DNA of 64,000 nucleotides, taken from positions 5,022,001 to 5,086,000 of the forward strand of contig NZ_JACCFO010000001.1 in assembly GCF_013410565.1 (NCBI RefSeq), written 5' to 3'. The notes under the pieces are model-generated. The model made no database searches, was not told the origin of the DNA, and was given only the letters and a program-made list of their open reading frames with translations. Origin of the DNA: Streptomonospora nanhaiensis. GTDB lineage: Bacteria > Actinomycetota > Actinomycetes > Streptosporangiales > Streptosporangiaceae. Shown one piece after another: positions 35,526-36,514 of this stretch. Each line of letters starts with the position of its first letter. The first letter of the stretch is position 1. The translations under genes and the position numbers were made by a program.

Positions 35526-36514
35526 GCACTGATTGTTCCGTGAAGACTTCCCACCGCGCGCGGCTGACCCGCTGGACACCCGGCCCTGCCGGGAGGGCGG
35601 CCACCACATCGCCCGGCTCCGCTTCGGGGCCGCCGCCTACCGCACCGTGGCCGTCCCCCAACGCCCCACCCGCCGCCCGGCCCGATGAGCTACCACGACG
35701 GCCTCTGACTCGCACCGGCACCGCGCACGGAGCGGGACCCGAGTCGGACGCCCGACTCCAGCGAGACCGCCCCGGCCCACCGCGCCAACCGGAGGGAGCC
35801 ACCCGTCCACTCCCCAACCGCGGAGTCTCCAGCGCGCCGGACGCACCTCGACCGCGCATTGAGCCGCGGAGACCGCAGGCGCGGCTGCCTTCTCCACTGG
35901 CATCGTCGAGGTCCTGCAGGAGCCCACAGATTGTTGACCTGCGGAAACAATGCGCATCTGGCAGGATTCGAACCTGCGACCGTCGGATTAGAAGTTGCCT
36001 GGTTTGATGTCGACCACCCCCGAATATTGCCGCTACCTGCCGTTTTATCCGCCGGCTCGCCGCCATCAATGCCGCGCTGTGACGCCGTGTGTCGCCCGAC
36101 TCCGCGACCGCCGAGCGACGATGGAGCAAACGCCGCTGAGGGATGACCAGGGCACCCACACAAATTGGAGATCGCGGTCCCATGCTCCTGGGTTTTCACG
36201 CGCCACTCTCGACCGACGCACCCCTCCGCTACCCCAACTGGCCCACGAGCCCTATCATGATGGCACTAGCCGGTGCAGTTCTCAGTTTTGTTAGTCCGAA
36301 TGGGCTGGCCGCGCTCTTTTGCCCGCGAACGATTCCGCCTACCGAGACCGAGCAGCCTCGGACAACGTCATCGTCCACGAGCTTTTACGCTGCAGTAGCG
36401 CGGTCACAGTAGGCGAGGAGGAACCCCTGGCGCTGAACTGGCGCGGATTCGACAAATAAATCCCGTAGCCGTCAAAGAATACTATTTGTGGGCAGCGAGA
36501 GGTGGAAGGCTGGC
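35526..36514. other. Junction region between chromosome and putative ICE
   Basis: This stretch of almost 1 kb has no credible gene. Composition shifts to clearly lower GC after about 35.95 kb. It contains the tRNA-Arg 3' remnant (35953-35994). No integrase gene or integrase remnant is seen here; if the element has one it should lie at the other end. Confidence 0.55.
35953..35994 (-). repeat. 3' fragment of tRNA-Arg(TCT), probable att site
   Basis: Read on the minus strand, the sequence runs from the anticodon loop (ACTTCTAATCC, anticodon TCT) through the variable region, a perfect T-arm (GCAGG-TTCGAAT-CCTGC) to the 3' acceptor strand CAGATGC and discriminator G. The matching 5' acceptor (GCATCTG), D-arm and 5' anticodon stem are missing: the bases before the loop (CAGGCA) do not pair. 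Such a fragment starting at the anticodon loop is the classical core left by tyrosine-recombinase integration into a tRNA gene. The intact tRNA would be at the element's other end, to the right of the window. Confidence 0.75.

Follow-up and report, generated by a model that had tools for sequence, protein, structure and literature searches.

A half tRNA-Arg gene and its intact partner

The DNA analysed here, called the window, is a 64-kb stretch (C1:5022001-5086000) of a 6.28-Mb genome in two contigs, which we designate G000; positions prefixed w are window positions. An earlier note had placed a fragment of tRNA-Arg(TCT) at 35953-35994, and this location proved correct: the minus strand carries the 3' half of that gene at w35951-35995. 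Read from w35995 to w35951, it comprises the anticodon loop TTCTAAT (anticodon TCT), the variable loop, the T-arm and the 3' strand of the acceptor, and the D-arm and 5' acceptor strand are absent from w35951-35995. The description of a piece that starts at the anticodon loop, has a perfect T-arm and lacks its 5' half thus holds, but the 3' acceptor is not perfect, since it reads CAGATGC against CAGGTGC in the intact copy, a difference of one base. ARAGORN called no tRNA anywhere in the 64-kb window, as expected for a remnant that is half a gene, and Rfam gave only two plastid-family matches over the tRNA piece when w35000-37000 was searched, both far under the gathering scores. The features at the two ends of the interval discussed below are as follows.

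w34686-35933: probable scar left of the element, with two short stretches like the integrase-proximal end of a related element (moderate evidence)
w35934-35995, minus strand: left att copy, made up of the 3' half of tRNA-Arg(TCT) at w35951-35995 and 17 bp downstream of it, with a perfect 38-bp core at w35958-35995
w35996-36133: conserved left terminus adjoining the core, with candidate arm sites for integrase and excisionase
C1:5143045-5144529: tyrosine integrase, 258 bp from the intact tRNA (PF00589, E=3.6e-16)
C1:5144788-5144862, minus strand: intact tRNA-Arg(tct), called by ARAGORN, right of the window

The intact gene was the sole intact copy found, and a pattern search with the exact T-arm region gave one further copy, at C1:5144797-5144818. 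The remnant and the intact gene share a repeat of 62 bp that is 94% identical (w35934-35995 and C1:5144771-5144832), with 38 bp perfect. This repeat extends beyond the 3' end of the tRNA to w35934 and includes a 15-bp identical block there; at the other side the similarity between the two copies ends after w35995, within the anticodon stem, and the element starts at that point. By BLAST, the 62-bp repeat had two real copies in 162 kb, the next match being only 13 nt long. A 32-nt part of the core occurred twice in the 6.28-Mb genome with up to 3 mismatches, once in the intact gene and once in the half gene, and the reversed control pattern occurred 0 times. The remnant and its partner are not a chance match.

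The two tRNA copies lie 86,837 bp apart on the same strand, and the element measures the same length from core to core (C1:5057958 to 5144795). The check proposed in the earlier note, namely a search to the right for an intact tRNA-Arg(TCT) on the same strand with a tyrosine integrase, was therefore positive, the PF00589 gene adjoining the tRNA; among 9 PF00589 matches in the genome, this is the only one inside the interval. The GC content was 70.3% from w35996 to the 3' end of the intact tRNA (86,792 bp), compared with 74.1% in the 35.9 kb to the left and 77.0% in the 39.1 kb to the right. The first 7.8 kb of the element has a GC content of 62.6%, and the cargo consists of blocks differing in GC. 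Pfam matches of the flanking genes indicated ordinary chromosome genes, the left flank encoding a cytochrome bd oxidase and an alcohol dehydrogenase, the right flank a fatty acid desaturase.

Genes between the two tRNA copies

The note had expected defence and conjugation genes to the right of the remnant, and both kinds sit between the remnant and the intact tRNA. The defence genes and the CRISPR arrays come first.

w36488-39088, plus strand: DEAD-box helicase, candidate defence protein PDC-S28 (PF00270, E=7.1e-09; PADLOC PDC-S28, E=4.8e-91)
w39979-43296, minus strand: type IIG / type ISP restriction-methylation enzyme (PF18135, E=8.8e-75; PADLOC REase_MTase_IIG, E=3.1e-286)
w43830-44305: CRISPR array A1, 6 repeats and 1 degenerate repeat, 6 spacers
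w44405-46612, plus strand: cas3, 735 aa, with a Pfam match (PADLOC Cas3c, E=1.7e-158 for w44522-46609); start w44405 set by comparison with the protein of the related genome G005
w46654-47298, plus strand: cas5 (PF09704, E=2e-31)
w47303-49123, plus strand: cas8c, csd1 (PF09709, E=8.8e-84; PADLOC Cas8c, E=1.2e-79)
w49120-50007, plus strand: cas7 (PF05107, E=1.2e-92)
w50013-50657, plus strand: cas4 (PF01930, E=1.9e-17)
w50650-51675, plus strand: cas1 of I-C type (PF01867, E=6.7e-94; PADLOC Cas1c, E=4.6e-132)
w51676-51966, plus strand: cas2 (PF09827, E=3.6e-21)
w52097-53666: CRISPR array A2, 22 repeats of 37 nt, 21 spacers, 19 distinct

The presence of cas3, cas5, cas8c, cas7, cas4, cas1 and cas2 together with arrays identifies the locus as a type I-C CRISPR-Cas system. 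The CRISPR and restriction cargo would be predicted to protect both the element and its host. The transfer genes follow.

w55675-56058, plus strand: T4SS pilin (PF18895, E=2.5e-12)
w56063-57892, plus strand: TrbL/VirB6-like membrane protein, a weak assignment from operon position and a match under the curated cut-off (PF04610, E=0.00018), with no NCBIfam match
w57882-58805, plus strand: PrgI-family protein (PF12666, E=1.5e-14)
w58802-60640, plus strand: VirB4/TraG-type ATPase (PF19044, E=1.8e-13, also PF12846; NCBIfam VirB4-like CD1110, E=5.8e-74, under the model cut-off)
w60634-62949, plus strand: coupling protein, VirD4/TrwB-like (PF10412, E=4e-08)
w62970-63782, plus strand: Replic_Relax protein, candidate relaxase (PF13814, E=2.3e-42, scanned as the longer ORF w62532-63779)

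The block also includes an NlpC/P60 protein by Pfam match. Proteins with PF13814 are, we assume, relaxases. The interval thus has direct repeats at both ends, for which the recombination event itself would be the presumed source, and carries its own site-specific recombinase as well as its own relaxase candidate, coupling protein and VirB4 (PF13814, PF10412, PF19044/PF12846), as in an integrative and conjugative element (ICE). When 15 genes in the window, among them the transfer and cas genes, were re-read, internal stops were found in 0 of 15. A total of 64 element ORFs, taken from an ORF list and a simple gene finder, were scanned with Pfam; a few of these overlie the arrays and are not genes. 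No FtsK_SpoIIIE or RepSA match, such as would characterize an AICE, and no TrwC match was found among the element ORFs scanned.

The cargo to the right of the transfer block includes regulators, glycosyltransferases, a short-chain dehydrogenase, an AdoMet synthetase, a carbamoyltransferase, a radical SAM protein, a thymidylate kinase, two beta-lactamase-fold (PF00144) proteins and an HTH_38/rve transposase, and a good part of it had no Pfam match in the same scan of 64 ORFs. One further operon lies right of the window, inside the element.

C1:5128235-5136179: Tad-type pilus operon

This block encodes a TadA-like ATPase (under the NCBIfam cut-off), two T2SSF proteins, a Tad/TadG-like protein, a large OmpA/BTAD protein and two TadE matches, one of them under the cut-off. 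Two methyltransferase-like proteins, one under the cut-off, lie between the Tad block and the integrase.

CRISPR spacers and their targets

Together, A1 and A2 hold 27 spacers, 25 of which are distinct. Within A2, two spacers are each doubled in tandem as exact copies (w53009-53117 and w53302-53412). Spacer A2_0 (w52134-52169), the one nearest cas2, is identical at 36/36 positions to the host chromosome at C1:4445922-4445957, in a gene that we take to be biotin-carboxylase-like on the basis of its motif; a Pfam scan of the short piece at this target gave no match. Among the matches listed, the target stretch is exactly common to at least 22 other genomes of the 341 in the family. Spacer A2_14 (w53155-53192) matches the host at C1:4770540-4770577 over 36/38 positions and a site in the genome G003 over 35/38, where the frame is lipoprotein-like. 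In P. aeruginosa, the consensus of type I-C systems is a 5' TTC (PMC7913775). In the host, GGT lies 5' of the A2_0 match and GCG lies 5' of the A2_14 match when counted from the first spacer base, TTC being the first three target bases. Both self-matching spacers may be tolerated because their targets lack a proper PAM.

The other good match among those listed against the 341 family genomes was that of A2_8, which agrees at 36/39 positions with a P-loop protein gene in G184, with a 5' TTC, and at 35/39 in G188, with a 5' GAC. A Replic_Relax gene lies approximately 11 kb from the A2_8 target in G184. Pfam did not call FtsK on the target protein, and A2_8 as a match to a rival element was not upheld.

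The searches covered phages and plasmids for A2, phages only for A1, and the 341 family genomes for the 25 distinct spacers. Phage matches to A1 and A2 spacers were short and weak (best E 1e-3) and were taken as chance. Matches to A2 were found in 382 plasmid records, and among the 30 listed, those of high coverage seem to be further repeat arrays, each matching at many places and at 65-67% along the full array. The family-genome searches scored two candidate regions per genome, and misses are therefore likely; in the own genome these regions were the arrays themselves, so that self-matches were searched separately with A2_0 and A2_14 alone. Twenty-one of the 25 distinct spacers, leaving out A2_0, A2_2, A2_8 and A2_14, were searched again in two smaller sets (12 and 9), and only the own arrays matched at E 1e-5. 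Spacers of sister arrays (144, own included) gave no convincing match to a rival ICE among the collected loci. Overall, few spacer targets were found, by a search able to miss.

The conserved terminus and the tRNA-Arg insertion hotspot

The left terminus (w35996-36133) together with the core recurs at 77-86% identity in 5 places, three in G005, one in G004 and one in G002. In a sixth place, in G002, the similarity is shorter and reaches only w36058, and a seventh, in G004, lacks the core. These copies bear on an alternative in which the half gene arose by plain duplication of a tRNA or is a pseudogene, and no mobile element is involved. Duplication is known to yield truncated tRNA copies; however, the remnant breaks within a few bases of where the half copies in relatives break, conserved element sequence begins at that point, and the two tRNA copies enclose an integrase and transfer genes. 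We give this alternative practically no weight, and the remnant is best read as one end of an integrated element.

The core pattern was found in 49 of 100 genomes (own included), and 14 of the 100 have at least two copies, some of the extra copies with 2-3 mismatches possibly belonging to other tRNA genes. G005 has four cores in a row, at C1:4096850, 4138477, 4269595 and 4321125 (span 4096820-4321156), with spacings of 41.6, 131.1 and 51.5 kb, and each has an integrase match, one of them partial, 1.3-7.3 kb to its left. The 131-kb interval resembles our element in its T4SS block (43-70% protein identity), its Tad block (31-57%) and its integrase (65%), and the genes before the integrase are also common to both. 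The integrase is 65-70% identical to copies in G001 and G005. In G001 it lies beside tRNA-Arg, with T4SS genes approximately 17-22 kb further off, and the far end is missing because there is only one core copy there, a point against the reading as an ICE. With a related integrase and a conserved left terminus at the same tRNA, the G000 element belongs to a tRNA-Arg(TCT) element family of the genus.

A search of named records for related integrases gave 307 loci, of which 80 were retained. The closest integrase matches came from Nocardiopsis (up to 68%), Allosalinactinospora and Streptomonospora. The Arg core was present in 28 of the 80 loci, in 27 of these past the integrase, and an intact tRNA-Arg(tct) was called in 14. 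A tRNA lay within 1.5 kb past the integrase in 27 of the 80 loci (Thr 16, Lys 7, Arg(tct) 3, Leu 1), its 3' end facing the integrase in 27/27. Judged from these genome comparisons, tRNA-Arg(TCT) is an insertion hotspot. The OmpA/BTAD protein alone also occurs near the integrase in 4 of the 80 loci. In another genus, locus L233 (G072:C17, 4883-13880) has a type I-C cas locus and array approximately 0.4 kb from an intact tRNA-Arg(tct).

The DNA immediately left of the remnant also resembles an element end. By blastn, w35557-35678 is similar to G005:C1 4263748-4263868 (77% over 122 bp) and w35813-35920 to G005:C1 4264386-4264490 (72% over about 108 bp), and the first of these matches overlaps the G005 homologue of the integrase-adjacent gene. 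No PF00589 match was found in w34686-35933. We suggest, with moderate confidence, that these stretches are what remains of an earlier insertion that has lost its integrase. A plain chromosomal left flank was considered and rejected, since w35557-35920 resembles the end of the G005 tRNA-Arg element that is next to its integrase.

The same backbone at other addresses

The genome G003, from the same genus, also has the genes of the left flank as well as tRNA-Arg and the desaturase gene next to it. In this closely related species the segment with tRNA-Arg and the desaturase is inverted (G003:C98 23005-25174 against G000 C1:5056685-5146887). In the C98 stretch searched (C98:5001-120000), the 38 kb past the tRNA had no DNA match to the element; element proteins gave only common-family or short weak matches on that stretch (a dehydrogenase at E 6e-14, others at E 5.6e-10 or weaker), and 0 of 14 PF00589 matches of G003 lie there. 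For the earlier note, the element would have been refuted by an intact tRNA-Arg elsewhere with nothing mobile beside it, together with unbroken synteny over 35.9-64 kb in strains lacking mobile genes. There is no such continuity in G003, the nearest relative at this locus, whose flanks are 86% identical and whose tRNA-Arg has no DNA like the interval next to it. As to the empty site that the note proposed to find in sister strains, G003 lacks the interval at tRNA-Arg, but the site is not clean, being inverted and holding 38 kb of other DNA. A simple empty site in G003 was dropped because of the inversion.

The backbone of the element is present in G003 on another contig, C6, where the T4SS block (w53718-64314) shows 95-96% and the Tad block (w103963-114407) 94% DNA identity. 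In blocks of at least 500 bp, the C6 element is 92.2% identical to G000 (28.6 kb, 10 blocks) and the C98 flanks are 85.7% identical (30.8 kb, 12 blocks). The G003 cas8c has 99% protein identity and lies on a separate 8.9-kb contig, C99, which is not joined to C6 in the assembly.

These data bear on whether the G000 element has become a decayed or immobile genomic island, one that keeps the ends of an ICE and no longer excises or transfers; such an island is compatible with ICE identity and differs from it in function. In favour of decay are the left flank, which resembles an older insertion scar, and the transposase within the cargo; moreover, tandem copies and integrase matches that are only partial, in G005, G004 and G002, indicate that decay occurs at tRNA-Arg. 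On the other hand, the frames for integrase, VirB4, coupling protein and Replic_Relax are uninterrupted and can be aligned with those of relatives, the two copies of the 38-bp core match perfectly, and G000 and G003 resemble each other more closely in the backbone than in the chromosome, which speaks for recent movement. We consider loss of function rather unlikely, though a possibility to be taken seriously.

The C6 homology stops just ahead of the G000 integrase gene (w120472), and C6 carries a different integrase frame at that point (101538-103178), which gave no blastp match to the G000 integrase at E 1e-3. This C6 integrase shares 80% identity with the integrase of a G005 element that bears CRISPR; the latter integrase in turn is about 26% identical to the G000 integrase over 180 residues. 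The CRISPR-bearing G005 element has the same backbone (67-82% DNA identity) and extends over 80.9 kb from a tRNA-Gly(CCC) at 2367838 to a 44-bp remnant at 2448786. In G003 C6, tRNA-Gly(CCC) and the 44-bp remnant are on one side, 22 and 11 kb from the backbone, and the ends of the G003 ICE are not delimited. Between that tRNA and remnant lies an 11.4-kb element bearing RepSA and an integrase (G003:C6 82039-93474). By sequence comparison, one backbone is found with two unrelated integrases, at tRNA-Arg(TCT) in G000 and at tRNA-Gly(CCC) in G005, and the G003 backbone is probably at tRNA-Gly(CCC) as well. We read the two-integrase pattern as a likely exchange of integration modules.

In G003 C6 and in both G005 elements, the T4SS side is accompanied by the Tad/integrase side, in the same order. 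This arrangement argues against the view that the 86.8 kb would contain two or more elements in tandem, and so does the interval itself, in which a third core copy was not found and only one integrase is present. Tandem stacking at tRNA-Arg in G005 and the cargo blocks of unlike GC would fit that view, which we nevertheless hold to be very improbable. Under the preferred reading of a single ICE, the Tad operon, which is kept in G003 and in two G005 elements, is by this conservation assigned to the shared ICE backbone.

Proposed mode of integration and transfer

Taking these results together, we are highly confident that the remnant is one att site of an integrated ICE of 86,837 bp at tRNA-Arg(TCT). 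Tyrosine integrases act at tRNA genes, and their general behaviour fits such an integration. The integrase would recombine the attP of the element with the 3' half of tRNA-Arg(TCT). The tRNA would be intact beside the integrase because attP carries the tRNA 3' half, from which the gene is rebuilt on that side, the original 3' half being displaced to the far end (w35951-35995). For this integration step at the 3' half we rely on the structure of the locus, that is, strand, order and place of the integrase, and on the general behaviour of integrases. As the gene content suggests, recombination between the two cores would excise a circle, and the relaxase candidate, the coupling protein and the VirB4-type T4SS could then move the DNA to a recipient.

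A bolder proposal is that the Tad operon is a second mating device that holds donor and recipient during T4SS transfer, and that the backbone changes its chromosomal address by swapping its integrase/att module. We offer this combination as speculation and rather doubt that it is correct as a whole. The conserved Tad operon nonetheless raises a testable question on mating, as the two chromosome-matching spacers do on the tolerance of self-matching, and the G000/G003 pair, in which nature has joined two unrelated integrases to the same ICE backbone, allows the cost and benefit of a change of address to be tested.

Comparison with known systems

The main features found here, T4SS-type ICEs, ICE-borne CRISPR and tandem tRNA-Arg insertions, already have precedents (PMC3218068; PMC7913775). 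Actinobacterial T4SS-type ICEs such as Fcci3350 of Frankia likewise combine an integrase, a coupling protein, a VirB4-type ATPase and a relaxase candidate on one integrated element (PMC3218068). In contrast to those surveyed, the G000 element has a Replic_Relax protein, with no TrwC match among the ORFs scanned; because the survey was restricted to TrwC (MOBF) relaxases, its criteria would have passed over this element (PMC3218068). A Tad operon, present in the G000 element, is absent from the description of T4SS-type ICEs in the accessible portion of the same paper.

AICEs (FtsK/TraB type) likewise have an integrase at a tRNA gene and tandem insertions, and Sav3708 and Sav3728 are an example of two in tandem in a tRNA-Arg gene (PMC3218068). 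According to the same survey, AICEs transfer by a single FtsK-like protein, as double-stranded DNA, whereas a T4SS of several genes is present in the G000 element, and the ORFs scanned gave no match to RepSA or FtsK_SpoIIIE. Literature searches found no Nocardiopsis integrative and conjugative element by title, and no paper on the combination of ICE, Tad pilus, type IV secretion and relaxase, which is no proof of absence in either case.

The pKLC102-like islands of Pseudomonas aeruginosa offer a parallel in another phylum and host, and we claim no relationship between them and the G000 element. They are likewise conjugative islands of roughly 100 kb with a type I-C locus and with one spacer marked as self-targeting (PMC7913775). 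In those islands 131 of 300 spacers (44%) match sequenced elements, mostly phages (PMC7913775), whereas few matches were found for the G000 element.

What is new here is the G000 element itself, the Replic_Relax-type transfer set with the Tad block as a shared backbone, and the comparison of two addresses. A 42-base scrap has led to an ICE of 87 kb with defined ends and a type I-C CRISPR-Cas system, in a phylum for which the survey reports 17 T4SS-type ICEs in 275 genomes, one of them with CRISPR-Cas components (PMC3218068).
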